A program made the translations under genes and the position numbers. Positions 1 through 14,300 of a stretch of DNA of 64,000 nucleotides are shown here, one piece after another. A model generated the notes under the pieces. The model had not been told where the DNA came from, ran no database searches, and was given only the letters and a program-made list of their open reading frames with translations. Every line of letters starts with the position of its first letter. The first letter of the stretch is position 1. The stretch is from Chryseolinea soli (GTDB lineage Bacteria > Bacteroidota > Bacteroidia > Cytophagales > Cyclobacteriaceae): the NCBI RefSeq assembly GCF_003589925.1, contig NZ_CP032382.1, positions 6,138,001-6,202,000 on the forward strand. The letters run 5' to 3'.

Positions 1-45
1 AGAAGCCGTCGTGTTATTCATCAAGTGTTGATATTCTCCTTAACT

Positions 46-2334
46 ATGAAAAAAGAAATATTGCTGGCCGTTGCCCTTGTTGCCACCGGAGTGCTCCTCA
101 CCATGTGTAGCCCATCCAAAAAAGAAGCCGAAGTCATTGCGGAAGAACCCGGATTCGATTCACCGCGCATAGTGAACAGCGATCCAAAACCAGGCTATAT
201 GACACCTGAAGAAAGCCGGAAAGCTTTCCGCTTGCCAAAAGGCTATCACATGGAGCTGGTTGCCGACGAATCCATGCTGAGCGAACCCGTGGCCATCTCG
301 TGGGATGCCAATGGCCGGATGTTTGTCACGCAAATGGAAACCTACATGCAGACCGTTGACACCACGGGCGAGCATCAAAAAGGCAGTCGCGTGCTGTTGC
401 TGGAAGACACCGACGACGATGGCAAGATGGACAAGCGCTCTGTCTTTATCGACAAGCTGATGTTGCCGCGCATGATCCTGGCCGTGGGCAACGAACTGTT
501 GGTGAACGAAACGGATACGTATGACATGTATGCGTACAAAGACACCAACAACGACGGTGTCGCCGATGAGAAAAGACAAGTGTATCACACCGACAAAAAG
601 GCTTTTGGAAACCTGGAGCACCAACGCAGCGGCTTGGATTGGAACCTCGACAACTGGATCTACATCACCGTCGACCCGGTGCGTTTCCAATACAAGGGAG
701 GCATGATCCACGCCGACTCGCTCATCAGCGGCTCGAACGGCCAGTGGGGATTGACCCACGACAACTATGGCAGACTTTTCTTTAGCCGGGCCGGCGCAGA
801 AAATGCAGGCTCCGGATTTCATATCAACCCTTCGTATGGCGCCCTCGATTTTGCGGACGCCTACAACGACTCCACGTTTGGCGCCGTGTGGCCGATCATC
901 AAAACGCCGGACATCCAGGGTGGTTTGAAGCGGATTCGCGAAGACACTACACTCAATCACTTCACGGCGGCCAACGGCCAATCCATTTTCCGGGGCGATC
1001 GTCTTCCTAAGACATTGGTGGGCGACTATCTGATCGGCGAGCCGGTGGCCCGCATCATCCGAAGAGCAAAGGTCATCAACACCGATGGAAAAAGAACGCT
1101 TCAGAATGCATACGACAAAGAAGAATTTATCTCGTCGCTGGACATGAATTTCAGACCCGTTAATACGTATACCGGTCCCGATGGCTGTTTGTATATCGTG
1201 GACATGAACCGCGGGATCATCCAGGAAGGCACATGGACCGGCGAAGGCAGTTACCTGCGCAAACAAATTCTGCGGCTTGGCTTGCAAAAGAATATTCAGC
1301 ATGGAAGAATCTGGAGACTCGTGCACGACGGCATGACCCGCGGCCCCAAACCCCACATGCTGGACGAAACACCCGCCCAACTGGTGGCCTATCTGGATCA
1401 CCCCAATGGCTGGTGGCGCGACAATGCACAAAAAGAACTTGTTCTGCGTGGCGACAAGTCGGTGGTGGAAGATCTGAAGAAGATCGCTGCCGGCAAAAAA
1501 GGACCATTGGCCGAAGAGCCTTCCGCTGTGGGGCGCATCCACGCGTTGTGGACCTTGTCGGGCTTGGATGCGATGGACAAAGACGTGTTGTCGGAGGCGT
1601 TGGAGGATGATGACGCGCAGGTGAGAAAGACAGCCGTTTGGATCAGCGAGCCGTATTTGAAAAATGGCGATGAGGACGTGATCGAAGCACTGGAACCGCT
1701 GAAAGACGACGCTGACTATGACGTGCGCATACAACTTGTCCTTTCTCTCTCTAGAAGTAAATCCCCAAAAGCCAAGGCCATAGCCGACGATATGCTGTCC
1801 AAAAACCAGGGCAATCAAATGATCGCCAGTGCAGAGAAGGCCTTGATCAAAACAGAGGACATCAAAAAGCTTGGCGCGAAGATGGGATCGTTGAATCCTG
1901 AAAGCCGGAAGCTGGTGGCGGATGGCGCGGCGATCTTCAATTCGTTGTGCGCGACCTGTCACGGTGCCGAAGGCAAAGGTGTGCCCACAAAACTGGCGCC
2001 GCCACTGGCGGGTAATTTTCAACGCTATTCCCGGAAAAAAGACGCCATGGTCCGCATCCTGCTGCATGGTTTAACGGGGCCCGTCGATGGCAAAACCTAT
2101 TCGGAGAACATGGTCGCCATGGGCGCAAACAACGATGCGTGGATTGCTTCCGTGCTCAGCTATTTGCGTTATGATATCGGGCTTTCGGAGAGGCGATTCC
2201 CGGGCAGTATCGGCGAAGAGTTTGCGAACCGGATCTTAGTGAAACCGGAAGAGGTCAAGAAGATCCGCGAGGAATCCAATGGCCGGAAGGCACCGTGGAC
2301 GTGGGAGGAGCTGGATAAGGCTGCTGAGAAATAA
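46..2334 (+). CDS. PVC-type membrane-bound dehydrogenase/haem-binding lipoprotein
   Basis: Predicted exported c-type haem protein. The ATG at 46 is preferred over the upstream GTG at 25 because it gives a lipoprotein signal (MKKEIL..., hydrophobic core, LLTMC lipobox with Cys21). The N-terminal ~400 residues look like the beta-propeller-type dehydrogenase domain common in PVC and Bacteroidota CxxCH proteins, with Asp-rich loops such as DTDDDGKMD. A HEAT-like helical stretch follows (~430-600), then a cytochrome c domain with the haem-binding motif CATCH at residues 635-639. The substrate cannot be told; such proteins are usually linked to periplasmic sugar oxidation. The length of 762 residues fits the family. 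The gene converges on the HNH operon with only four bases between the two stop codons and no visible terminator. Confidence 0.85.
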   Translation: MKKEILLAVALVATGVLLTMCSPSKKEAEVIAEEPGFDSPRIVNSDPKPGYMTPEESRKAFRLPKGYHMELVADESMLSEPVAISWDANGRMFVTQMETYMQTVDTTGEHQKGSRVLLLEDTDDDGKMDKRSVFIDKLMLPRMILAVGNELLVNETDTYDMYAYKDTNNDGVADEKRQVYHTDKKAFGNLEHQRSGLDWNLDNWIYITVDPVRFQYKGGMIHADSLISGSNGQWGLTHDNYGRLFFSRAGAENAGSGFHINPSYGALDFADAYNDSTFGAVWPIIKTPDIQGGLKRIREDTTLNHFTAANGQSIFRGDRLPKTLVGDYLIGEPVARIIRRAKVINTDGKRTLQNAYDKEEFISSLDMNFRPVNTYTGPDGCLYIVDMNRGIIQEGTWTGEGSYLRKQILRLGLQKNIQHGRIWRLVHDGMTRGPKPHMLDETPAQLVAYLDHPNGWWRDNAQKELVLRGDKSVVEDLKKIAAGKKGPLAEEPSAVGRIHALWTLSGLDAMDKDVLSEALEDDDAQVRKTAVWISEPYLKNGDEDVIEALEPLKDDADYDVRIQLVLSLSRSKSPKAKAIADDMLSKNQGNQMIASAEKALIKTEDIKKLGAKMGSLNPESRKLVADGAAIFNSLCATCHGAEGKGVPTKLAPPLAGNFQRYSRKKDAMVRILLHGLTGPVDGKTYSENMVAMGANNDAWIASVLSYLRYDIGLSERRFPGSIGEEFANRILVKPEEVKKIREESNGRKAPWTWEELDKAAEK

Positions 2335-2338
2335 AAAA

Positions 2339-3163
2339 TTAGATGGTACCCAAATCATTTTCTTTCAGGAATTGCCTTATAAAAAAGCGACACATTCCTG
2401 AATAGAGTGACGTGGCACTGCCATAGTTTATAAGATTTTTAAACTCACGGAGAAAAATTTCTTTTTGGGTTTCGGAATTGTCGTTTTGCGATTTGACCAA
2501 CGCTTCCTTTACCCGCCAAATTTGTTCGAATAAAAGGATCAACATTTTCTTTCTTTCTTGTACGAGGAGGGGCCTTTGAAGTGCGTAAACTTTTATCGAC
2601 GCCTCCCCCATGGCGGTCTTGGCCCGGACGACGCCTTCTGTCGGCTCGTATTCCAGGTGATCCTCGGGGAGGTCGATACACGGATTGAGTAACAACCGGG
2701 CGGCTTCCTCCTTTGGGATGTCAGGAATATCACCGGCTCTTTTTGCTTCATCTTGTAACGGAAACTGGTCCAACTTTCCATAGCCTTCTAACTTCGTAGT
2801 TCCATAAAGTATATGCTGTCGCCGTTGGTTGCAATGCTGACAAGCCAACAGCAAATTGTCCCAGTCGTTTGCAAGCCAATAGTAGCCTGGGGTTTGGGGT
2901 TTCTTTTCGTTTACACGTCCTTTCGGCCGGAAATGTTCAACATCGCCATCGTATACCGCGCCATAGCTGGTTTCGCAATAGGCGCATTTGACGAAGATCT
3001 TCTTTAGTTCATTTTTTAAATTTACATCGTTATACATTTGAAAATCGTATGCTTCTGTTGCACCGCTCTTATAGTGCGCAATGGCCTTCTTGGTTTCTTC
3101 GCACCATTTTCCATTGGGATCGACGAGCCACTCGGGCGCTTTTGGTTTTTTTATGTGAATCAT
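2339..3163 (-). CDS. HNH endonuclease, PtuB/TIGR02646-like, third gene of candidate defence operon
   Basis: Predicted HNH nuclease of 274 residues. The zinc-finger cysteines are CAYC (60-63) and CQHC (108-111). The HNH core is complete: VEHFRPK with the general-base His77, WDNLLLAC supplying the Asn, and CN at 111-112. This arrangement matches PtuB-like and retron-associated HNH proteins. The ATG at 3163 overlaps the stop of the preceding ATPase gene as TAATG, so the two are probably translationally coupled; a GTG six bases upstream is the alternative start. The C-terminal half is helical with no recognised domain. Being downstream of an AAA ATPase with its own HNH domain suggests that the two proteins form a nuclease complex. 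Defence is inferred from the family only. Confidence 0.85.
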   Translation of the reverse strand: MIHIKKPKAPEWLVDPNGKWCEETKKAIAHYKSGATEAYDFQMYNDVNLKNELKKIFVKCAYCETSYGAVYDGDVEHFRPKGRVNEKKPQTPGYYWLANDWDNLLLACQHCNQRRQHILYGTTKLEGYGKLDQFPLQDEAKRAGDIPDIPKEEAARLLLNPCIDLPEDHLEYEPTEGVVRAKTAMGEASIKVYALQRPLLVQERKKMLILLFEQIWRVKEALVKSQNDNSETQKEIFLREFKNLINYGSATSLYSGMCRFFIRQFLKENDLGTI

Positions 3164-5316
3164 TACCACTCTACGGTTTTCAGGTATTCCTTAGCTGCTG
3201 CAACGCTATCTTCTTTTAGCTTCAGATGCGTGCTAAATCCTTCCTCTCTTATTTTTTGAGCGAAATTTTCGTTGATGGTTTGAAAAAGCGCCTGCATCAA
3301 AGGCGAACTGCCCAGTAGCTCTTTTTCCGACAGCCTTTTTGAGAAATCGGAGATCTGTTTCTTTTCTTCCTCGGTTCGATCGGATTCGCGTTTACTCAAT
3401 AGTTTGTAGTAGTCCGCATACATTTTCTCGGTGGCGTCGTCCAGGACGTTGATCAATCCGAACAAATCGGACGTTAGCAATTGATCGATGCGCAACAGGT
3501 TGTGATCCGGCAGAACCTTGCGGTCTAACGCAACAATTTTGTTTAATGGGTCCCGTGCCAGAACGACCACTTCGCCATGCGATAGGCCTCTGAGGCAAAG
3601 CGGCTCATGGGTGGTCACAATGAATTGAAGTTTTGGAAAGGCCTTGCGGAGGGCGCTTACGATTTGCATTCGCCACCGGGGATGTAGATGGTTTCCCAGT
3701 TCATCTATTAAGACGATGCCGTAGGAGTTGTGATAATTGGCGCTTTCCACGGAAAGGGTTTGCATCATGTCGGCGGCAATGGCAACAACATTTTTATAGC
3801 CATCGCTGTTGCTCTCCAGTTCCTGATCGTCCCCAAATTGACGGATACACACCTCGTCGCCATCGATCCAGACTTCATCATCGCCGCGTAAAGCAAGCAG
3901 GTCAAAAAGCGCGGGGGCTACGCGATCGGCAAACTCTACCGGGTTGGTTTGATTAATGGTTCTTAACCATTGTCGCGCGTCGTTCAAGGCCGTGCTGTAG
4001 TCGAAAAGGTTACGTACGTTTAGGTAGGGCTCTTTTTGCCGGTCAGGTTGAATGTTGCCCTTGGGCAACAGCCGGGTAGAGCCATAGGCCAGAACAAAGC
4101 TCAAAGCTTCTTCCAAGTCCGTTCTAAACCCGTTGGCGTCGAAATGAAGTTCCACGGGCTTGTCATGTTCGTAACTTTGTATGATCACTTTTCCACTGCC
4201 CGTTCCCTTTTTTAGAAAATCGTGTACGTCGAGCTGAAGTTTTGCCAGTTGTTTTTTTCCGGCCAACGTCATCGCCACGGCTTGAAGAACGGAGCTTTTT
4301 CCAATGCCATTGTCGCCCAGTAGTAAGAGCCATGATTCACGGCTTTCCTGATCATTGACCGGCAATACGTCTAATACCAAATTGTCGATCGAGCGAAAAT
4401 TCTCAATCGTGATGGATTTGATTGAAAAACGCTTGATCGCCGACAACTGCTGGCTTACTTCCTGCATGTTTTCCTGGTAACTTTCCGTCAGGGGTTTCTT
4501 TGATTGCTGGTGCTTTTTTGATGGATCGTTGTGGATGGATTTTACGTTCTCCCAAAGAGAAGCATTATTTTCATACCAGGCATCGAAAACGGTTCGCTGC
4601 ACCGCTACAAATTCCTGTGAGGGTTGGTCGGAGAACAATTCCCGAACAAAGGCGACCAACTCAGCCGACCGTTGATTGGTGAGATCCTTTGAATCGATCA
4701 AGGTTTCGAGCCTATTCAGGAGGTTGCTCCCGGATTGCCTTCGGCGCGCTACCAAGTCCTCCCGATTAAGTCCCAGGATATCAATGGTCACTTTACCTTT
4801 GGTGCTGATCGACCTGATCAAACCGGTCTCTTCGAATTCCAGGTGGCTTTCGATGACATCGGAGGCCGGGTCTATGAGTAATGGATTTTCCTTTGCCAGT
4901 TCCGTTCCCAGGGCTCCCACCGGCGCCCGGGCGCTCTCATTCTCCAGCGGGAAATAATCTCGTTTATATTTGTGACTACACATTTCGCAAGCGAGCAATA
5001 GATTGTCCCATTCGTATGCAAGCCACCAATAATGCAAAGGAGCATAGGATTGGGTCAATCCTCTCGCTCCCGATTTCGGTCTGAAATTATCCACGTTCCC
5101 CGGGCCTACGGATTCGATACGGGACTCACAATACACACATTTCCCCTTGCACAGTTTATCGAGGTCCGATTTCAGTTCGCCCAACAACGAAAAATCGAAT
5201 TTCAATCTTTCCTGTCTGGTGGTCTTTTCATAGCTGCTTCGCAAGGCTTCTTTTGCGGCCTGCACGCGGTCGCTCGTGAGAAAAGATGGAGGAGATTGTC
5301 GCTTGATCGGTATCAT
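3163..5316 (-). CDS. HNH-domain/AAA-ATPase fusion, PtuA-like, second gene of candidate defence operon
   Basis: A 717-residue fusion. Residues ~1-200 are an HNH domain of the same type as the downstream protein: CVYC at 60-63, LLLAC/EMC at 106-113, and YKRDYFPL. The usual general-base His is replaced by Asn77 (VDNFRPK), so this copy may be inactive as a nuclease. After a linker (~200-295), residues ~298-717 form an ABC/OLD-like ATPase: entry motif IENFRSI, Walker A GDNGIGKSS at 334-342, signature-like SDGYKN near 504-509, Walker B IVLIDELGNHLHP at 534-546, and a switch His in VTTHEP near 567-572. This is the PtuA/AAA_15 class of SMC-like ATPases. The gene starts 23 bases after the stop of the amidohydrolase gene and overlaps the next gene, so one transcript is likely. 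Confidence 0.87.
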   Translation of the reverse strand: MIPIKRQSPPSFLTSDRVQAAKEALRSSYEKTTRQERLKFDFSLLGELKSDLDKLCKGKCVYCESRIESVGPGNVDNFRPKSGARGLTQSYAPLHYWWLAYEWDNLLLACEMCSHKYKRDYFPLENESARAPVGALGTELAKENPLLIDPASDVIESHLEFEETGLIRSISTKGKVTIDILGLNREDLVARRRQSGSNLLNRLETLIDSKDLTNQRSAELVAFVRELFSDQPSQEFVAVQRTVFDAWYENNASLWENVKSIHNDPSKKHQQSKKPLTESYQENMQEVSQQLSAIKRFSIKSITIENFRSIDNLVLDVLPVNDQESRESWLLLLGDNGIGKSSVLQAVAMTLAGKKQLAKLQLDVHDFLKKGTGSGKVIIQSYEHDKPVELHFDANGFRTDLEEALSFVLAYGSTRLLPKGNIQPDRQKEPYLNVRNLFDYSTALNDARQWLRTINQTNPVEFADRVAPALFDLLALRGDDEVWIDGDEVCIRQFGDDQELESNSDGYKNVVAIAADMMQTLSVESANYHNSYGIVLIDELGNHLHPRWRMQIVSALRKAFPKLQFIVTTHEPLCLRGLSHGEVVVLARDPLNKIVALDRKVLPDHNLLRIDQLLTSDLFGLINVLDDATEKMYADYYKLLSKRESDRTEEEKKQISDFSKRLSEKELLGSSPLMQALFQTINENFAQKIREEGFSTHLKLKEDSVAAAKEYLKTVEW

Positions 5317-5339
5317 GAGATGGAATGGATGTTGAGATG

Positions 5340-7160
5340 TTAAATCGCGACCGCTCCGTGAAGCTTATTCCAAAGGAACTCCCGCGGATTGCTTTTTGCA
5401 ATTTGATCAAATTCATTTTGCGTAAGATTGTCAAGCATTCCAGCCAGCAGGCTTTTTTCCGAGTTATGATTTCGTACCACATAGAAGTCTGTGCCGAACA
5501 ATGTTCTTTTCATCAATTTCGGATTCGCCAGGGTTTGCTTCAACAGCGGCTGGATACTGGCGTTGTACAAAATATAACTCAGGTCGGCGTATACGTTCGG
5601 ATATTGGAGGATCATGCTGCAGATGATGGAGTACCAGTCGGCATATTTCCAAACCTGCTCTAGTTTTCCGCGTTTGTCGTGGCCATTTTCATCTGTGAGA
5701 AAAGAGATCCCCAGGTCCGGATGCTTGACCAGTTGACTGGAAAAATTATCCCGGTCAAGTTCCATAAACCTGTCCCATTCGTCGTCACCTCCAAAATGTC
5801 CAAGGCACAATTTCAAATGGCGTAGATCATATTTTAAAGGATTGCTTTCATGCGTGAATCCAAAAAGTTCTTTTATCCTTTTGTCCTTGGCCATGGCAAC
5901 ACATTTCCGTAACAATTTCTCCTCTAACAAACACAGGTAGTTCAAGGGGTGTGTGAAATTGTTGATGAACTCGCTGTTCTTCCGCTCCGTCAGCACCATC
6001 GGTTCATACAATTCATGGCCGCAGGCTTGCTCAAATACGGGATGATAATCCCATTCCTTTTGCTTTAATCCCCTGTAATAGATCGTTCCCTTTATGCAAT
6101 GCGTGAGTATGGGAATGCTATGGTCGGCTGCATACTTCCAAATCGGAAGCAGCGCTTCGTCAAAAGGGTAATACCCCAAGGCAGGGTAGATTTTGAATCC
6201 GCTGAACCTGTGGCCCTCGATATATTCCCTTATAAAACAATCCTTCAGGGTCACGCTGCCATTGTCTACGGTGTAGTTTAGATGTTTTTCCCCTTCCCGT
6301 GCCAACCGGCGGGGATCGGCGAACACGAAGGGATAAATCAAATCCTTGTTCTCATGGTTTTGCTTTATAACCGAGAGTACTTTCATTTGCTCATGATAGC
6401 CCGCCCCCTTTTTCAATTTCCCGGCGCCCATGAATTCCATGTCCATCGGTAAAACAATAAAACCGGTTCCTGCCGGATATTGACTTTTTAGCCTTGCAAA
6501 TATTCTCGTTTGACTTTCATAAAATGCAAATCGGCCTATGTTGAGATATCGTTTCGCCAGGGCTCTGCTTTCCGGGCCCGGGAGTACACCGAGAAAGGAC
6601 CAGATCTTTTTCAAAATAAACCACAGGATGTTTCTCCCGGATTTAAAGAAAACGACAAACAGGAGTACGATCGCCATTTTTCCCACAAACGATGAAGGAA
6701 TAAAAAGAAGTCGATGCCCCCATAACCAGGATCTTGATGTATTAATTGCGTCTGAAGTCGAGGTGTCAGGTGCAGATACGGTACTAAGCCAATCAAAGGC
6801 GATATAAAATATCTGGATAGCGATGAGAAGGCCAATGATAAATATAGACAGATGCAAAATGCCGACGCGGGCAATAAATATCTCAACCTTATAGCGCAGT
6901 TCCCTGATGTTCCGGTACCAGGGTTTAAATCGCCAGGTATCCGGATGATTGAACCAAAACCGAAAAAGACGAACGACAAGGGATATCGGCAGTAAATAAT
7001 AAATGGGCCATGGCAAAAATGTTTTAGCCAGGAATGGAGGCACGTGATCACCCGTAAAGATGTGGGTGTGACAATTGATGATCGACATCGACGTTGCTTC
7101 TAACGTCTCTTCAACAACCGGCGATGTAGTTTGAGGGATGGGAGGACGGACGACATGCAT
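5340..7160 (-). CDS. Membrane-inserted amidohydrolase, first gene of candidate defence operon
   Basis: A 606-residue TIM-barrel metal-dependent hydrolase (Amidohydro_2-like) interrupted by membrane segments. The metal-binding HTH lies at 31-33, then hydrophobic stretches at ~52-68, ~99-124 and ~155-172 separate it from the rest of the barrel (from ~210). Later motifs fit the superfamily: FKIYPALG with Lys323, THC with His354, LGHFGG with His455, and FGTDF with Asp558. The split barrel implies a catalytic domain anchored at the membrane. Met25 (start 7088) directly before the HTH strand is an alternative start. No clear promoter is visible between the upstream terminator and the start. The substrate is unknown. 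Its place at the head of an operon with HNH and AAA-HNH genes is unusual. Confidence 0.82.
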   Translation of the reverse strand: MHVVRPPIPQTTSPVVEETLEATSMSIINCHTHIFTGDHVPPFLAKTFLPWPIYYLLPISLVVRLFRFWFNHPDTWRFKPWYRNIRELRYKVEIFIARVGILHLSIFIIGLLIAIQIFYIAFDWLSTVSAPDTSTSDAINTSRSWLWGHRLLFIPSSFVGKMAIVLLFVVFFKSGRNILWFILKKIWSFLGVLPGPESRALAKRYLNIGRFAFYESQTRIFARLKSQYPAGTGFIVLPMDMEFMGAGKLKKGAGYHEQMKVLSVIKQNHENKDLIYPFVFADPRRLAREGEKHLNYTVDNGSVTLKDCFIREYIEGHRFSGFKIYPALGYYPFDEALLPIWKYAADHSIPILTHCIKGTIYYRGLKQKEWDYHPVFEQACGHELYEPMVLTERKNSEFINNFTHPLNYLCLLEEKLLRKCVAMAKDKRIKELFGFTHESNPLKYDLRHLKLCLGHFGGDDEWDRFMELDRDNFSSQLVKHPDLGISFLTDENGHDKRGKLEQVWKYADWYSIICSMILQYPNVYADLSYILYNASIQPLLKQTLANPKLMKRTLFGTDFYVVRNHNSEKSLLAGMLDNLTQNEFDQIAKSNPREFLWNKLHGAVAI

Positions 7161-7184
7161 AGGCTTGGGGGGAATAAAGGATGT

Positions 7185-7240
7185 TCAAAAAAAGAACAAG
7201 CCCATCCACCTGATGTTTGAACATCATAGGCGGATGGGCT
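7185..7240 (-). terminator. Rho-independent terminator after the amidohydrolase lipoprotein gene
   Basis: Read on the minus strand, a long imperfect hairpin (arms beginning AGCCCATCC and ending GGATGGGCT, with GATGTT/AACATC near the loop) is followed by TGTTCTTTTTTTG. It would stop transcription from the 7.4-8.8 kb gene before the three-gene HNH operon, implying that the operon has its own promoter. Confidence 0.7.
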
Positions 7241-7433
7241 CTTTCCTTTTCTAAGATAGAGGATTACACATTGGAATCCATAAGAAAAATGGATTTCTTT
7301 TTTTGAGGCTCTTCTCCGTTAAAGTTTATTTCTATCCATACAACGTCGCGGAGAAAATCTCAGGTCGTTTTGACAATATGCGTTGCACCACACATTATTT
7401 TATGTCAATGAAAAAGCTGACATACTCCTGAGT

Positions 7434-8759
7434 TCAGTGCGTCTCATTGGTCGCGACCCAAGTGCCGTTTATCATTACTTTTTTCGCATCCCGCAGCACC
7501 CGAAGATCTTTCAACGGATCACCTTCCACAAATACAAGATCGGCCAGCTTTCCTTTCTCTAGGCTTCCCAATCTTTCGTCAACGCGAAAGTAGCGGGCAT
7601 TCTCCAGGGTGGCGGCGACAATAATTTCCATGTTGCTCAATCCTGCGGCCTGCAGCAATTCCATCTCCCGGTAAAAGGCATAGCCAAATTCGGCATGGGC
7701 CACAAAGGTATGCGAGCCCAGCACGATCGGAACGCCGCCTTTTTTTGCGAGACCGACAAAGGTCAACATGTTTTTGAACGCGTGCACTTCAATGCTGTCG
7801 CCGTGGTCGGTTTGTTTTTCGAAAGCGGCCAGTGTGGGGCTTAGAAATATTTTCTTTCGGGCCAGGAATCGGATGAGCGAATCGGCTACGGGATTGTTTT
7901 CGAATTGAAATGTATCCCATACCTCATACCGCCCCCGCTTTCGCGCGTCGTTGTCGGCCAGCACGCGTTGCTTGTATTGTTCGGCTTCGTAGGGAGGGAG
8001 CAGAACGGTTCCAAAAGAGGTGACGTGTTCGATGCCATCCAGCCCCGCGTTGATCGCATCAACCGCGTTGCTGATCTCGAGGTGGGCCATGACGGGAAGG
8101 CCGTGCGCATGGGCGGCCGTGCAGATGGCCTTGATGGTGCCGACGGGAAGGCCATAATATACTTTGATGGCGGTGGCGCCCTCGCGATACAACTTCTCTA
8201 CGGCGAGCCGGCCTTCTTCGGCATCCTGAACGATCATGGCATCTTCCGGGTAGGCCGGCGGGTAGGTGTTGAGGTGCGGGCCGGTGAGGAATAGTCTGGG
8301 CAGTGGCATGCCGGACGACCGCACGCCGGCATAACTTTCATTCCACTCGCCGGGATCTCTCACCGATGTGATGCCATGGCGGAGATAGACGGCGGGCAGC
8401 GTGGCACTGTTCTCGTTGTGATAGTGCGCGTCGAACATACCGGGAAGGATGGTGAGACCTTCTACTTTCTCGATCTGCGCGCCGTCGGGGATCTTTACTT
8501 CTCCTTGTTTACCGACGGCTTCGATCTTGTTGTCTCTCACGATCACGCACGAATTTTGAATGGGGTCCCCTCCCAGCCCATCGATCAACGTGGCCCCGAC
8601 AAAGGCGATAACCTTGTTTCCTTTCGGAATATCGTTTTCATTCAATTCATGGATGATCACGCGAGGTCCATCGCCGGCATTTTCAGCGTTGGATGGTTTC
8701 TCTACCTGACAAGAGGCAAGCAACACCACAACCATCGCATACCGGCAGATTCTTTTCAT
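7434..8759 (-). CDS. Amidohydrolase-family lipoprotein (imidazolonepropionase-like)
   Basis: A 441-residue exported metal-dependent hydrolase. The start at 8759 gives a lipoprotein signal (MKRICRY..., LLASC, Cys17); a start further upstream would add 13 residues of poor signal quality. Superfamily motifs are GMFDAHYHN (HxH), IKVYYG (Lys), MAHLEI and IEHVT (two His). The usual catalytic Asp near the C-terminus (normally GTD or GSD) is replaced here: the sequence reads LGSHTF, so the enzyme may be inactive or unusual. A typical C-terminal amidohydrolase strand (GSLEKGKLADLVF) follows. Prolidase-like or imidazolonepropionase-like are the nearest family names; the substrate is unknown. Confidence 0.83.
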   Translation of the reverse strand: MKRICRYAMVVVLLASCQVEKPSNAENAGDGPRVIIHELNENDIPKGNKVIAFVGATLIDGLGGDPIQNSCVIVRDNKIEAVGKQGEVKIPDGAQIEKVEGLTILPGMFDAHYHNENSATLPAVYLRHGITSVRDPGEWNESYAGVRSSGMPLPRLFLTGPHLNTYPPAYPEDAMIVQDAEEGRLAVEKLYREGATAIKVYYGLPVGTIKAICTAAHAHGLPVMAHLEISNAVDAINAGLDGIEHVTSFGTVLLPPYEAEQYKQRVLADNDARKRGRYEVWDTFQFENNPVADSLIRFLARKKIFLSPTLAAFEKQTDHGDSIEVHAFKNMLTFVGLAKKGGVPIVLGSHTFVAHAEFGYAFYREMELLQAAGLSNMEIIVAATLENARYFRVDERLGSLEKGKLADLVFVEGDPLKDLRVLRDAKKVMINGTWVATNETH

Positions 8760-8871
8760 GTTGAAGATCAAAAGCATATTCATATCCTGAAATAACATAA
8801 CTATCCGTTACCAAGAGCAGCACGACATCAAATTCTAATCGAAATGGAACAAAATTGTGCGATTTGTGATT

Positions 8872-8902
8872 TTGAGATTACTATTTGCCGGCGATACCTT
8901 TA
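8872..8902 (+). promoter_or_regulatory. Possible Bacteroidota-type promoter for the AraC gene
   Basis: TTG (8872-8874), 20 bases, then TACCTTTA (8895-8902), one mismatch from TAnnTTTG. It lies 25 bases before the start codon of the regulator. Confidence 0.4.
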
Positions 8903-8927
8903 CAATCTTTAGCAATCCTTCAGCGCG

Positions 8928-9755
8928 ATGAGCACCTTCACCCTTGGTCAGGAAAAGTTCAGGATCTATAAAATAAGTTCTAAGCGGCATGACTCGGTGT
9001 CCTATAAACGTCGTGACTATTTCAAGATTTCCTTGCTCACCGCGGGCACGGGAATGATGTATTTTTCCGGGACGCCGGTGCATGTAGGAAAAGCTACGCT
9101 CACGTTCTTCAACCCGCTGCTGGCCTATTCGTGGGAGCCGACTTCGAAAACGCATTCGGGCTACACCGTGTTGTTCACCGCAGATTTTTTACCGGGTCCT
9201 CTGCGCCGGCCACCGCTTTTTGCACCGGATCTCATTCCTTTGTATACGCTTGACAAGACGGCGGTCAAGGATCTTGTTTTTATCTTCGAAAAGATGATCG
9301 CCATCGATCAATCCGACTATGCGGGAAAACATGAGTTGCTGTCGCACTACATTCAGTTAATTGTACACGAAGGCCTTCGGTTGCAAAAGGCACCCAAGCC
9401 AGCGCTGCAAAACAATGCCGCCGAACGAATTACGCGCCAGTTTTTCGACTTGCTGTGGAAACAGTTTCCGGTGAAATCGCCCGGTGATGTGATTCAACTA
9501 AAAAATCCGTCGCACTATGCCGATGCGTTGAACGTGCACATCAACCACCTCAACCAATCCATCCACACCATCTCCGGAAAAAACACGACGTGGCACATCC
9601 AGCAAAAATTGACGGGCGAGGCAAAAATGCTGTTGATGCAAACCGATTGGCCGGTGGCCGACATTGCCTACAGCCTGGGGTTTGAATATCCATCCTACTT
9701 CAACCGGTTCTTCAAGAAGCAAACCGGGATGACGCCCCTCTCCTTCCGGAAATGA
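8928..9755 (+). CDS. AraC-family transcriptional regulator
   Basis: A 275-residue regulator. The N-terminal ~150 residues form a cupin-like sensor domain. The C-terminal ~100 residues hold two helix-turn-helix motifs of the AraC type; the second, most conserved part reads VADIAYSLGFEYPSYFNRFF, followed by GMTPLSFRK at the end. The start ATG is the first in frame after the likely promoter. It lies upstream of a co-directional short-chain dehydrogenase gene (95 bases between), which is a plausible target. The inducer is unknown. Confidence 0.9.
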   Translation: MSTFTLGQEKFRIYKISSKRHDSVSYKRRDYFKISLLTAGTGMMYFSGTPVHVGKATLTFFNPLLAYSWEPTSKTHSGYTVLFTADFLPGPLRRPPLFAPDLIPLYTLDKTAVKDLVFIFEKMIAIDQSDYAGKHELLSHYIQLIVHEGLRLQKAPKPALQNNAAERITRQFFDLLWKQFPVKSPGDVIQLKNPSHYADALNVHINHLNQSIHTISGKNTTWHIQQKLTGEAKMLLMQTDWPVADIAYSLGFEYPSYFNRFFKKQTGMTPLSFRK

Positions 9756-9850
9756 GAATACTTTGAAAAGTATAATTTTCCCTTGGCAAACTATTATCTC
9801 CCGCGAGCGCTTTCGCCAGACCTTTGTCCATCATTTTAAAGCAACAAATT

Positions 9851-10753
9851 ATGTGGACAAAAGCAAACATGGGCGACCAATCGGGAAAAACCTTCCTAGT
9901 GACGGGCGCCAATTCGGGCATTGGGTATGAGACGGCGCTGGGATTATATGAAGCCGGCGCGACGGTGATCGTGGCGTGCCGCAGTAAGGAAAAAGCAGAC
10001 GAGGCCATTTCGGAGATGAAGAAACAAGGTGGCAAAGGCAAACTCGAACCGGGCGTGCTCGATCTTTCGGACCTGGATTCGGTAAAAGATTTTGCCAACA
10101 ATTTCCTGAGAACGCATTCGAAGCTCGATGTGCTGGTGAACAACGCGGGCGTGATGGTGCCTCCCGCATCCAAAACTCGCCAGGGATATGAACTTCAATT
10201 CGGTGTGAACTTTTTAGGACACTTTGCGCTGACAGGCTATTTGTATCCCTTGCTCAAAAAGACACCTCACTCCAGAGTGGTGACCGTGAGCAGCATGGCC
10301 TATCTTCATGGCGCGATCGACTTCGAAAATCTTCGTTCCGAAAAAGACTACAACGACTTTCGTGAATATGCCCAGAGCAAACTGGCCGACCTGATGTTCG
10401 CCATTGAACTCCAGCGGAGAATATCTGCACATAGCCATGGCGTGACATCGATCGCCGCGCAACCCGGTGCAAATGAAACCAACCTGGCACGAACCATGAG
10501 CGAAGAAGCTTATCAAAGTGCCGTCCAGCGAATTGGTGCGCTCATGCCCATGGCACAAGGCGCGTTGTCCATCCTCTATCCTTCCGTTTCGCCCGATGCA
10601 ATAGGCGGCCGTTTATATGGACCGGATCGCGATAACGGATACAGAGGCTATCCTGCCGAAGCTGTGATGGCGCCCGTGGCAATGGATGAAGACACTGCTC
10701 GAAAACTTTGGGAGACAGCAGAAGCGATCACCGGCGTGCGTTTTCCTGGCTAG
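9851..10753 (+). CDS. Short-chain dehydrogenase/reductase (retinol dehydrogenase-like)
   Basis: A 300-residue NAD(P)-dependent oxidoreductase with a Rossmann fold. The cofactor motif TGANSGIG is at ~18-25, NNAG follows (VLVNNAGVMVPP), and the catalytic Ser and YxxxK are in VSSMAY and YAQSK. The ATG at 9851 is preferred over an upstream TTG. The substrate cannot be told; the overall shape resembles retinol-dehydrogenase/WWOX-like SDRs. The adjacent AraC gene is the likely regulator. Confidence 0.88.
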   Translation: MWTKANMGDQSGKTFLVTGANSGIGYETALGLYEAGATVIVACRSKEKADEAISEMKKQGGKGKLEPGVLDLSDLDSVKDFANNFLRTHSKLDVLVNNAGVMVPPASKTRQGYELQFGVNFLGHFALTGYLYPLLKKTPHSRVVTVSSMAYLHGAIDFENLRSEKDYNDFREYAQSKLADLMFAIELQRRISAHSHGVTSIAAQPGANETNLARTMSEEAYQSAVQRIGALMPMAQGALSILYPSVSPDAIGGRLYGPDRDNGYRGYPAEAVMAPVAMDEDTARKLWETAEAITGVRFPG

Positions 10754-10804
10754 CGCAATGCCGACGATAGCAAAGCGATCGTATTCGAATGGGATGACTT
10801 TCCG

Positions 10805-11761
10805 CTATACGTTGGCTTGGCCGGGCGTGTCGGTCAACACATCGATCTGAAACAACGCTGCCAATTTCGCCTTCTTGTTTTTATCCAGGTAGGCCAGGCC
10901 GTATTCCTGGCCGAAAGTATAATGCTTGAAGGCCGCCAGTCGCTTGGGAGTTTTTAGCCTTTCCAGTACAAGGTTCAGCGTTCTATAGAAGGGCTCTCCG
11001 TCGATGCCATCGCCGGTATTTCTCAGCACAAACAGGAAGGTGTCGTTGTCGACATGCCAATTGAATTTGAGAATGCCGGCGGCGTCTGAAATCAACTCCA
11101 GTTTGGAGTAACGCAGATCATGGTTGGTCAACGGAATAATGGTTCTATCGATAAAGGATTGATAGAATTCCAAGGTGGGCGTATGGCCGAACTCTGCATC
11201 TTCTATGATGTATTCATCCTTATCCAATAAATCGGTATAGGACATTGCCTTTTCCTTGCTCAATTTCTTTTTGGGAAGCTTGTAGTCGCCGGAAAAGACG
11301 GTGGCATTTTTAAATTCCTGAACGGCTTTATCCAGATCGAAGAAGATGTCGATGGATTCTCCAACGTAAACAATGTCTTCGGTCCAGTTCAGCGAATGAC
11401 AATAGATCCCCTTGTCCTTTCCGGCTTTATCATAAAGCTGGAACAGCATGCTATCTTTTTCTACGATCTGATTACACCAGGCAAAGACCTTCACCTCACC
11501 TACGTCGATCTGGTTGGACCAGTAGCTTTGGACCGAGTCCAGAACCCGGGCGTTTACTATGTTCAACAAGGGGCGTTCTCCTTCCAGCGAGGTCACATGG
11601 AGGTGCTCCTGATTCACGTCTTTCAAACGATGGCCATCGCGTAGGATGAAATAATCATAGTTCAAGAACCAATGCTTGACGGTTTTGCGCATATCCAGAA
11701 CGATGGTTTGGGGATAAGGTAGCCTGTTGGACAAGGTTTGCAGGGTGTCGATAGCTGACAT
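10805..11761 (-). CDS. Hypothetical protein, 318 aa
   Basis: Not recognised. A soluble, mixed alpha/beta protein without a signal peptide or membrane segments. The start at 11761 (MSAIDTLQ) is chosen; a start 30 bases upstream is possible. The middle is Lys-rich (LPKKKLSKEK) and the protein has many aromatic residues. It stands alone, converging on the SDR gene and following the FtsX-type permease gene in the same direction by about 110 bases. Smooth codon use over the whole length argues that it is a real gene. Confidence 0.7.
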   Translation of the reverse strand: MSAIDTLQTLSNRLPYPQTIVLDMRKTVKHWFLNYDYFILRDGHRLKDVNQEHLHVTSLEGERPLLNIVNARVLDSVQSYWSNQIDVGEVKVFAWCNQIVEKDSMLFQLYDKAGKDKGIYCHSLNWTEDIVYVGESIDIFFDLDKAVQEFKNATVFSGDYKLPKKKLSKEKAMSYTDLLDKDEYIIEDAEFGHTPTLEFYQSFIDRTIIPLTNHDLRYSKLELISDAAGILKFNWHVDNDTFLFVLRNTGDGIDGEPFYRTLNLVLERLKTPKRLAAFKHYTFGQEYGLAYLDKNKKAKLAALFQIDVLTDTPGQANV

Positions 11762-11873
11762 GCGCAGTTGATTTAAAGGACGGGTGCGCAAGATAGCTAC
11801 TTTCCTGTTTTCCTAAAAAATCAATGCACCGTGGATTTGATTTTGTCGCCATCACCGTTCGATCTTATCTTGA

Positions 11874-14300
11874 TCACTCCGACCGCAGCACCTTTGCCGG
11901 ATTGATCGCCGCGCCCCGGATCACCTGCAAGCTCACGGTCGACAGCGCCACCATCGCCAGGATCAACACCGGCACGACAAACAGATCCCACCCTAAACCA
12001 ATGCGGAACGCAAAACCCTGCAGCCACGAGTCGATCCCGAACCAGGCCATCGGCAACGAAATAGCCGCGGCAATAAGCACAAGACGGAGAAATTGTTTCG
12101 AGAGCAAATAGACCATGCTGGTGGTGGTGGCGCCCAACACTTTCCGTACGCCGATCTCCTTCAACTTTTGAGCCGTGGTGAACGCGGCCAGGCCCCACAA
12201 GCCCAGACACGAGATGGCGACTGCGAGGATAGCAAACAGCCCGAAGATCTTGCCGAATTGTTGATCGCTTCTGTATTGTCCGTTGAAGGATTCGTCGAGG
12301 AAATAATAGCTATAGGGATCGCCAGGGATCAGTTCTTTATAAAGTTTGCCAATAGCCTCTACGGTAGTATTCATGGAACCTTTGGCGAGCAGAACGGAGA
12401 CGGCTGTGGTGGAGATCGTATCGGCTTTGAAAAGAAAGGGAACATAGTCGGTTTTCAGTGAACTCCAATGGTAGTTCTTCAGCACGCCAAGGATGGCGAC
12501 AGTGTCATCGCCAAGGATCAATTGTTCTTTTAAAGCCTGTTCGGCTGTGCCGAGGCCGTATGCCTGGAGAGCCGTTTCATTGATGATAACAGATTCCATA
12601 TCGGAACGGATGGCGGGATTGAAGTTTTTGCCGGCGGCAAATTTGATGTCGTAGGCGTCGATGAAATCGGGATCGATCCACACCACACTGCCGTCGCGCG
12701 AGTCGCTTCGCTGCGATCCGCTTTTACGCACGTCGGCGCCCCAGTTGTGGCCACCGCCGGGAATGGCCGCTGAGGTGGCTACGCGCGTGATGCCGGGGAG
12801 CTTTTTGAGTTCCTCTTTGAATAACGTAAGCTTTTGTTTCGACACGTTGTACGACAACGTGCTGGGGCCATTCACGACCAACATCTGTTCGGTTTGCAGA
12901 CCTTTATCCTGATGGCGCATGAACATGATCTGCCGATAAACCACAAACGTACCCACGATGAGGATCAGGGACGCAGAGAATTGAAAGACCACCAAAGCTT
13001 TTCGCAGTGAAAAGCCACTCGTCTCCGAACGGCCCTTCAGCACATCCGTGATGCGGAACGAGGACAACGCCAGCGAAGGATAAGCACCCGAAGCCAGCGA
13101 GCCGGTGACAAATAGGCCCAGCAAAATAAACCATAGCCTTGGGTCGGAGAAATTAAATGCCAAGGGTTTGCCGATGATCTCGCCCAACAAGGGCAGCAAC
13201 AAAACAGCAAATCCAACGGCCAACGCGATGCCCAGCAAGTTGATGAGCACCGACTCGAAAAAGAACTGCCACACCAATTGGCTCCGCTGTGCACCCACCG
13301 CCTTCTTGATGCCCACCTCCCGGGCGCGTTCCATAGCGCGTGCAGTGGAAAGGTTGATATAGTTGATCCAGGCAATGAAAAGGATGAAGGTGGCGATCAG
13401 ACCAAAAAAATAGATCATGCCATAGGTAGTGGTGTCGCCATCGTGCAGGAGACCGGGACTGAGGTGTATGTCGCGGAGGGGCTGCAGTCCCAGTACGGTT
13501 TTTGTATTGGATCCAGATAGCCGCTCATCGAAGTGATGTTGTGCAAAGCCGGGGAGTTTCGCGTTCACCGCTGCGGCGTTCGTATGGTCGTTCAATTCAA
13601 CATAGGTGGTGAAGTTGTTCCACTTCCATCCGTCGTCTTCTTTGTACTGCTGATTTTGGAAGAGGTTGTGAGAAGGCACAAGGGCGTTGAACCAGTAATG
13701 CGAATTCGGGGGAACATCCTCCAGCACCGCCGTCACCGTGTAGTCGCCGTTGCACCAGCCTGTGCCGGTGAGCCGGATCGTTTTGCCTACCGGCGATTCT
13801 TTGCCAAAATATTTTTCAGACAAGGACTCTGTGATCACGATCGCGTTGGGGTCATCCAACGCCGTGGCTGGATTGCCTTCGATGGCGTGGAACGTAAACG
13901 CCCGGAGAAAAGTGGAGTCCACGATGTTGATGGCATATTCATGAAACGCCAGCGCTTCACCCGTAGGCGGCTGGTAGATCATCACGGCGCCGCCATACAT
14001 GGGATGGGTGCGAATGTAACGCTTCACCTCCGGAAACTCCGTCGCTAACGCAGGACCGAGTCCGTAGGTAGACGTGATGGTGGCAATGCGCTTCTCGTTG
14101 TTTTGATAGACCGTCCGCGTGATACGATACAGGTTTTTTCCATTGACATGAAAATCATCATAGCTCGTCTCAAAATCGATGTATTTCAGAATGACCATGC
14201 AAGCTGAAACCCCGAGGGCCAAACCGAAAATGTTGATGAACGAGAACAACTTCCGCTTGAAGAGGTTCCGCAGCGCGAGCGTAAAGAAGTTTTTTAGCAT
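11874..14300 (-). CDS. ABC transporter permease, FtsX/MacB type
   Basis: An 808-residue double-FtsX permease of the MacB-like type common in Bacteroidota. It opens with an N-terminal transmembrane helix (FINIFGLALGVSACMVILKY) and a MacB_PCD-like periplasmic domain. A first FtsX domain (~285-425; WINYINLSTARAMERAREVG) is followed by a second periplasmic domain and a second FtsX domain (~680-800) with LKEIGVRKVLGAT. No ATP-binding subunit gene is adjacent, so it must use one encoded elsewhere or act alone. The substrate (lipoprotein, peptide or drug) is unknown. Confidence 0.9.
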   Translation of the reverse strand: MLKNFFTLALRNLFKRKLFSFINIFGLALGVSACMVILKYIDFETSYDDFHVNGKNLYRITRTVYQNNEKRIATITSTYGLGPALATEFPEVKRYIRTHPMYGGAVMIYQPPTGEALAFHEYAINIVDSTFLRAFTFHAIEGNPATALDDPNAIVITESLSEKYFGKESPVGKTIRLTGTGWCNGDYTVTAVLEDVPPNSHYWFNALVPSHNLFQNQQYKEDDGWKWNNFTTYVELNDHTNAAAVNAKLPGFAQHHFDERLSGSNTKTVLGLQPLRDIHLSPGLLHDGDTTTYGMIYFFGLIATFILFIAWINYINLSTARAMERAREVGIKKAVGAQRSQLVWQFFFESVLINLLGIALAVGFAVLLLPLLGEIIGKPLAFNFSDPRLWFILLGLFVTGSLASGAYPSLALSSFRITDVLKGRSETSGFSLRKALVVFQFSASLILIVGTFVVYRQIMFMRHQDKGLQTEQMLVVNGPSTLSYNVSKQKLTLFKEELKKLPGITRVATSAAIPGGGHNWGADVRKSGSQRSDSRDGSVVWIDPDFIDAYDIKFAAGKNFNPAIRSDMESVIINETALQAYGLGTAEQALKEQLILGDDTVAILGVLKNYHWSSLKTDYVPFLFKADTISTTAVSVLLAKGSMNTTVEAIGKLYKELIPGDPYSYYFLDESFNGQYRSDQQFGKIFGLFAILAVAISCLGLWGLAAFTTAQKLKEIGVRKVLGATTTSMVYLLSKQFLRLVLIAAAISLPMAWFGIDSWLQGFAFRIGLGWDLFVVPVLILAMVALSTVSLQVIRGAAINPAKVLRSE

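Follow-up and report, generated by a model that had tools for sequence, protein, structure and literature searches.

Introduction

The described systems closest to the locus studied here are Septu and Canu. In type I Septu, an OLD/ABC-type ATPase, PtuA, adjoins an HNH nuclease, PtuB, with intact motifs and no reverse transcriptase, while in type II Septu, or retron I-A (Ec78, Eco7), related PtuA and PtuB proteins are the effectors. Anti-phage activity by way of the PtuAB nuclease has been published for other PtuAB pairs, and in E. coli Septu immunity is abolished by mutation of either the His or the Asn of the PtuB H-N-H motif (PMC13096335, consulted sections). In Canu (CanABC), an MBL pro-nuclease is activated by a caspase complex (PMC12799240, consulted sections). 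As far as the consulted sections of these two papers tell, the published PtuAB and CanABC cases provide defence without the membrane amidohydrolase described below, hereafter AMD, and the word 'amidohydrolase' has no occurrence in the main text of PMC12799240. The consulted part of the PADLOC paper names a reverse transcriptase and Hma as accessory genes beside Septu, and no amidohydrolase is mentioned there (PMC8565338). Exchange of effectors between immune cassettes is an established phenomenon, a recent example being a protease-nuclease pair (PMC12799240, same sections). Within the titles and abstract openings of the open-licence literature, we found no description of a link between AMD and Septu, Canu-like or other protease-MBL cassettes.

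The stretch of Chryseolinea soli DNA analysed here (64,000 nucleotides, bases 6138001-6202000 of the genome, the window) contains a three-gene operon in which AMD precedes a PtuA and a PtuB gene. With moderate confidence, we read it as a Septu-type anti-phage operon to which a recurrently recruited membrane enzyme would have been added as an accessory.

Organization of the operon

All three genes lie on the minus strand. AMD (gene 1, 5340..7160, 606 codons), a predicted membrane-hairpin amidohydrolase of the Amidohydro_2 family, heads the operon; it is followed, after 23 bases, by a PtuA-type ATPase with an N-terminal HNH-like domain (gene 2, 3163..5316, 717 amino acids) and then by a PtuB-type HNH nuclease (gene 3, 2339..3163, 274 amino acids). 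Genes 2 and 3 are joined by a TAATG, the stop TAA occupying 3165-3163 and the ATG being read from 3163. The initial annotation of this DNA had described just such a layout, with the same strand, gap and overlap, and the coordinates of the reading frames agree with it on every point. The three genes are presumably co-transcribed.

Because reading frames were taken from the longest possible start, small overlaps between them may be unreal. The longest frame of gene 3 begins at a GTG at 3169 and has 276 codons. The start of AMD is ambiguous, at 7160 or at an internal ATG at 7088 (residue 25): taken from 7160, the protein has 27 extra residues before its INCH motif, which exceeds most of 20 aligned relatives.

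A strong terminator-like hairpin with a T-run is found between the upstream gene and AMD (7185..7254, minus strand), and bases 7180-7330 of the window fold at -51.6 kcal/mol. The idea of a leader RNA common to AMD operons was discarded: the window leader folds at -54.1 kcal/mol and 11 others at -16.0 to -35.3 kcal/mol, and by eye none of these 11 (8 from AMD-PtuAB loci, 3 from other loci) has a comparable hairpin. Bases 7040-7440 were scanned upstream of AMD for the -33/-7 motif that we take to be that of Bacteroidota promoters, and none was found. The 7 genes neighbouring the operon gave no PADLOC match, and a defence island is not evident in the window.

The PtuA and PtuB genes

Judged by profile matches, genes 2 and 3 are Septu genes. 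The PADLOC PtuA model PDLC00292 matches residues 1-714 of the 717 of gene 2 (655.7 bits), and the PtuB model PDLC00319 matches gene 3 (266.3 bits). Both proteins are matched along their length, and the PtuA/PtuB logic first proposed from the letters is thereby confirmed. The ATPase part of gene 2 also matches the solved PtuA chains 9n69, 9kjx and 8ee4 (E 3e-18 to 2e-14). Its Walker A motif, GDNGIGKSS, is at residues 334-342 (4291..4317, minus strand), and alignment to the solved chains places the Walker B motif, IVLIDE, at residues 534-539 (3700..3717, minus strand). In PtuB, the catalytic set of the HNH core is intact (CAYC, EHFRPK and DNLLLACQHC, 2831..2986, minus strand), the catalytic residues H79 and N105 being present in the numbering of the 276-codon frame, where H79 corresponds to H77 counted from the ATG.

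The reported absence of a reverse transcriptase holds genome-wide, as no match to PF00078 was obtained at E ≤ 0.001 in the whole 8.24-Mb single-contig genome, and on this ground a retron identity was rejected. Within bases 1-14000 of the window, no family of Rfam, which need not contain every retron RNA, reached its gathering cut-off. Having no detected reverse transcriptase, the operon differs from type II Septu and retron I-A, although its PtuA and PtuB are related to the effectors of those systems (NCBIfam NF041760 and NF041761, both below cut-off). It resembles type I Septu, and almost the whole length of the fused PtuA is spanned by a PADLOC PtuA model; the differences are that PtuA here has an HNH-like domain minus the catalytic His, and that AMD is added at the head of the operon. 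A second pair made of a fused PtuA and a PtuB, with no adjoining AMD, is present in the same genome (G000:C1 3315876-3319135).

The HNH-like domain of PtuA

The initial annotation had the ATPase carrying its own HNH domain, and set it apart by this from Septu and retron Eco7-type effectors. The first claim holds in part. A domain of HNH fold is indeed present: gene 3 finds the N-terminal part of gene 2, which is PtuB-like, at 37% identity, and residues 60-113 of PtuA (4978..5139, minus strand) keep the four Cys and the Asn, but the catalytic His is replaced by Asn. The second does not hold, as the HNH-ATPase fusion is not new: PADLOC PtuA models already include the HNH-like N-terminus.

We aligned residues 1-285 of 132 fused PtuA (a few being the same protein found twice) with 21 free PtuB proteins. 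All 21 free PtuB have the His (H79 in the window) and the Asn (N105). In the fused domains the Asn is kept throughout (132/132), the counts for the four Cys are 132, 132, 131 and 132 of 132, and the His is found in 55/132, with 43 Asn, 10 Ser and others at that position. Among the closest relatives of the window PtuA, Asn or Ser is mostly found. As far as its residues tell, the HNH-like domain of the window PtuA is a pseudo-nuclease. The conservation of the Cys and Asn of the fold, each missing from no more than one of the 132 fused proteins, together with the His kept by the 55, would also suit a scheme with two active HNH domains, where the ATPase too would cut nucleic acid; yet the Asn of the window PtuA, the Asn or Ser of its closest relatives and the constancy of the His in free PtuB argue against it, and we give this scheme a very slight chance.

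Loss of the His is untied to AMD, since it is kept in 9 of 25 AMD-linked fused PtuA and in 7 of the 10 known without adjacent AMD. In two solved PtuB chains, 22bv and 22bu, an Ala stands for the His at the aligned place (weak alignments, E 0.013 and 0.32), as would be expected of a catalytic mutant. A pseudo-HNH next to an intact PtuB would offer a testable clue to the architecture of the PtuAB complex.

The predicted membrane amidohydrolase

AMD matches PF04909 (Amidohydro_2) with an E value of 1e-7 and 32.5 bits, for a cut-off of 26.4, and no PADLOC or NCBIfam model at E 0.1. Homologues numbered 989 among 8000 scored candidates. With Amidohydro_2 enzymes, a family of hydrolases and decarboxylases, it shares a HxH...H...H...D metal-site pattern, which we take to be ACMSD-like. 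Across 201 aligned AMDs, the HxH motif (7062..7070) has H31 in 200 and H33 in 198; H354, a predicted metal ligand (6099..6101), is His in 199; H455, the predicted catalytic His (5796..5798), and D558, a predicted metal-binding or catalytic Asp (5487..5489), are found in all 201 (all on the minus strand). The whole set is intact in 198/201, the 3 exceptions being a truncated sequence and an own-genome paralogue that was entered in two rows.

AMD differs from the ACMSD-like enzymes by an insertion, past the first metal motif, that comprises two predicted transmembrane helices, at residues 104-122 (6795..6851, minus strand, mean hydropathy 2.57) and 152-170 (6651..6707, minus strand, mean hydropathy 2.20), each of 19 residues; a weaker hydrophobic segment is seen at residues 48-66. 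The hydrophobic segments sit between this motif and the remaining protein, as in the earlier description of an amidohydrolase interrupted by membrane segments. They are flanked by Lys/Arg-rich segments, which suggests that the predicted barrel is cytosolic, if fold and membrane topology are as we infer them. A search by sequence for a PDB relative returned chance-level matches only.

Searches with AMD of 72,556 plasmid records and 50,697 phage records gave no match, and viral contigs yielded no confirmed one. As far as record names tell, 80/80 of the loci kept (the best 80 of 114 relatives) belong to Bacteroidota. One candidate fusion of AMD to an extra domain, in L032, was set aside, as its additional 300 residues, inspected by eye, resemble a spurious frame before the normal start.

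Neighbourhoods of AMD in relatives

In the neighbourhoods of these best 80 of 114 relatives, a conflict-type partner was present within five genes of AMD in 39 loci, and none of the listed partners in the other 41. PtuA/PtuB accounted for 9 loci: 8 with a fused PtuA and directly adjacent, and L017, where an unfused PtuA/PtuB pair lies three to four genes from AMD. The 30 loci with non-Septu partners comprised a caspase, a middle gene and an MBL (10), an M4-like protease and an MBL (10), c16/c32/MBL (3), c16 alone (2), an MBL alone (2) and an AAA16-type ATPase (3). At L063, which is near a contig end, the protease alone was seen.

The caspase gene, examined in one representative, matches Pfam Peptidase_C14 and the PADLOC caspase model (60 bits). 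In representative L054, the short MBL resembles LmuA/Avs1a/RTasMBL (272 bits to LmuA), and in representative L069 the long MBL is weakly LmuA-like (52 bits). The label 'M4-like' is based on a conserved HExxH...E pattern, presumably the M4 protease motif; a Pfam search with the protein gave no match. The loci where AMD adjoins a caspase gene, a middle gene and an LmuA-type MBL gene resemble Canu in layout, whereas the window operon has neither a CanA caspase nor a CanC MBL among its 3 proteins and 7 neighbours tested.

Full-length AMD was found in 5 of 395 genomes of the class, which were not chosen by similarity rank, at 7 places. The partners there were PtuAB (window), the M4-like protease and MBL (G407), an AAA16 ATPase (G285) and a DUF4365 gene (L122), and at L123, G319 and G423 no partner was evident.

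Two Aquimarina loci, L033 and L074, retain AMD at a site where close relatives have the caspase-MBL cassette, which these two lack. As AMD stays there without the cassette, and as 41/80 loci have no partner, AMD probably has some independent role.

The frequency of solitary AMDs matters for the idea that AMD is a second, parallel effector which, once the system fires, would damage the membrane or deplete a metabolite in parallel with nucleic-acid cleavage by PtuB. AMD is predicted to be membrane-anchored with an intact active site, the predicted nucleases linked to it are not all of one fold (HNH, MBL), and at the divergent AMD locus L145 a patatin-like phospholipase is encoded two genes beyond AMD. 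For a toxic effector, however, it would be odd that AMDs with an intact site so often have no such partner, and two metal ligands are lost in an own-genome paralogue that neighbours a candidate defence gene. We judge this role unlikely.

Association of AMD with its partners

The nearest partner was directly adjacent to AMD in 35 of the 39 loci, against 6.0 expected and a maximum of 14 in 5000 trials in which the same partner block was placed at random within the same loci; this test is conditional, because partner families other than PtuA and PtuB, the only ones fixed beforehand, were found from AMD neighbours. Spacing in directly adjacent pairs was at most 56 bases, overlaps included, in 36/38. 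Full-length fused PtuA was present in at least 3 of the 395 class genomes (7/395 with partial matches), a lower bound as two candidates were scored per genome, and was beside AMD in 8/80 loci. Given this rarity, a chance adjacency of AMD and PtuA is very unlikely.

A tree was made of 85 AMDs, with 8 rows added beyond the 80 loci and the short L039, L072 and L091 left out. On it, 5 changes were required for the PtuAB label (11 rows, L017 included), at least 4 of them forced, 5 for the caspase label and 9 for the M4 label. PtuAB and caspase labels were more clustered than in any of 500 shuffles, and the M4-MBL label barely more than shuffled (36/500 as low). A single clade of the 10 PtuAB-adjacent AMDs was rejected (p-AU 2.8e-47, cost of 467 log units, on a quick tree where L145 is distant). 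The PtuAB-linked AMDs not forming one clade, the coupling of AMD with PtuAB appears to have recurred. The own-genome AMD copy L122, which overlaps the DUF4365 gene, was counted as 'none' in these labels.

Distances between AMDs and between their PtuA were correlated, with r 0.90 over 24 pairs and r 0.71 over the window clade of 17 (both p 0.0001), which speaks for co-inheritance, not for function; 16 AMD-PtuA pairs, 14 of them in this test, were joined by contigs of equal length, taken as a proxy for a shared contig (best 120 of each list). In the window and nine fused-PtuA loci, AMD came first in 8, after PtuB in L145 and convergent in L028. A tree of 34 fused PtuA, including 24 AMD-linked ones chosen for that, needed 3 changes of the AMD label; its starred branches are compatible with one origin of the AMD link, L145 and others being on long branches.

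AMD could also be a plain metabolic enzyme of the membrane, next to which defence cassettes land by chance with no functional link. Such an enzyme would account for the 41/80 loci without partner and for the own-genome paralogue L123, which has no evident one either. It would not explain why the linkage is repeated in distinct AMD lineages, on either side and in either order, why adjacent genes are so closely spaced, or why AMD and PtuA distances co-vary, and we hold it to be distinctly unlikely. We conclude that the recurrent adjacency of AMD to PtuAB and to other nuclease-type cassettes gives indirect support to a candidate role in defence.

Fused PtuA without AMD

Of 12 sampled places with a fused PtuA, 10 had no AMD adjoining it. 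Six of the 10 follow a methylase-HerA-NurA-like trio and four are plain PtuA-PtuB. The domains of the trio were checked in L119, whose genes match an N6/N4 methylase, HerA and, just below cut-off, NurA; the other trios are alike by eye. The PADLOC name Hma was not retained for this cassette, as Hma includes an m5c methylase.

In the other direction, AMD was without PtuA/PtuB in 71/80 loci, within the flanks retrieved. The proposal of a new three-gene system was therefore too strong. Amidohydrolase homologues occurring regularly without the HNH genes had been named in advance as evidence against it, and this is literally what was found, but 30 of these 71 loci lie near other conflict-type partners.

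These counts also weigh on a role in which AMD would restrain the nuclease core, antitoxin-like, either by keeping a signal or substrate low or by binding the core at the membrane. Such a role would fit the Aquimarina AMD left alone where the caspase-MBL cassette is missing from the same site (L033 versus L036), as solitary antidotes are. With PtuB accompanying the fused PtuA in the 10 places that have no adjacent AMD, restraint nevertheless seems to us quite improbable.

Proposed mechanism

The PtuA fusion and PtuB are already known, and the new part of the operon is gene 1, AMD, which by its neighbourhoods is not specific to Septu. The operon would act in phage defence as follows. PtuA would sense infection or infection damage and control PtuB, as is known for other PtuAB; by analogy with studied pairs, infection would lead to the release of PtuB, which would cleave a nucleic acid that the cell needs (tRNA-Tyr in the studied E. 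coli case), and growth would stop. The pseudo-HNH on PtuA would most likely dock or position the active PtuB. AMD, for its part, would be a metal-dependent hydrolase whose TIM barrel sits on the cytosolic side of the inner membrane, anchored by the two-helix hairpin inserted after the first metal motif. As an accessory repeatedly picked up by nuclease-based cassettes, it would act on a small molecule or lipid, and this reaction would most likely help to trigger or license the nuclease core. Supposing that AMD is functionally coupled to the core, triggering or licensing is our tentative first choice, action as a second effector a possibility that we place only just after it, and restraint the doubtful third.

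A broader reading is possible, and we put it forward with reserve. AMD may be a general-purpose immune enzyme of Bacteroidota which, at the inner membrane, produces or breaks down a signal, either a small molecule or a lipid, and which became coupled on several separate occasions to unrelated nuclease effectors (the HNH of PtuAB, Canu-like caspase-MBL, M4-like protease-MBL, perhaps the DUF4365 protein). If so, a single membrane reaction would control many kinds of abortive defence. More generally, a membrane enzyme recruited by several unrelated nuclease cassettes would constitute a shared control or effector layer, and would offer a handle on infection sensing at the membrane.

Two further AMD loci may be mentioned. 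At L092, AMD is accompanied by the MBL and by a protein that another LmuA model matches at the N-terminus, and Chryseolinea serpens (G002) carries the AMD region L043.

Gene neighbourhoods of the membrane-hairpin amidohydrolase and of the fused PtuA

At sampled locus L145, the genes for PtuA, PtuB, the membrane-hairpin amidohydrolase (AMD), a 147-aa protein and a patatin-like phospholipase lie in a single row (1161-8321). This locus is a predicted AMD-Septu system with a different gene order, and the phospholipase is a possible membrane effector.

One other protein cluster recurs near AMD (L028, 14748-16382; L075, 3903-5423; L048, 8279-9856; L020, 5768-7354). The L075 member, the sole one tested, matched Peptidase_M19, and the L028 member adjoins PtuA. 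At L035, the gene lying 22 bases beyond AMD (7013-8488) resembles by eye a contractile tail sheath protein.

In the window, a terminator-like hairpin of very high stability that includes a T-run (7185-7254) stands immediately ahead of AMD; scanning bases 7040-7440 for the Bacteroidota -33/-7 motif revealed no promoter near it. The next upstream gene (7434-8798), 273 bases from AMD and on the same strand, encodes an amidohydrolase of a different family, Amidohydro_1, and its presence there is probably a coincidence.

The same genome carries an AMD paralogue (L122, 8731-11414; about 6479731-6482414 of the contig), in which the HHHHD set reads HQDHD, two metal ligands being gone. It overlaps by 1 base the gene of a DUF4365 protein that matches the PADLOC candidate family PDC-M02A.

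Finally, 6 of the 12 sampled fused-PtuA genes (L119, L120, L141, L146, L147 and L148) are preceded by a three-gene set, closely packed with PtuA and PtuB. In L119, the one locus whose domains were checked, the set comprises an N6/N4 DNA methylase, a HerA-like ATPase and a gene that matches NurA weakly; the other five look similar by eye.
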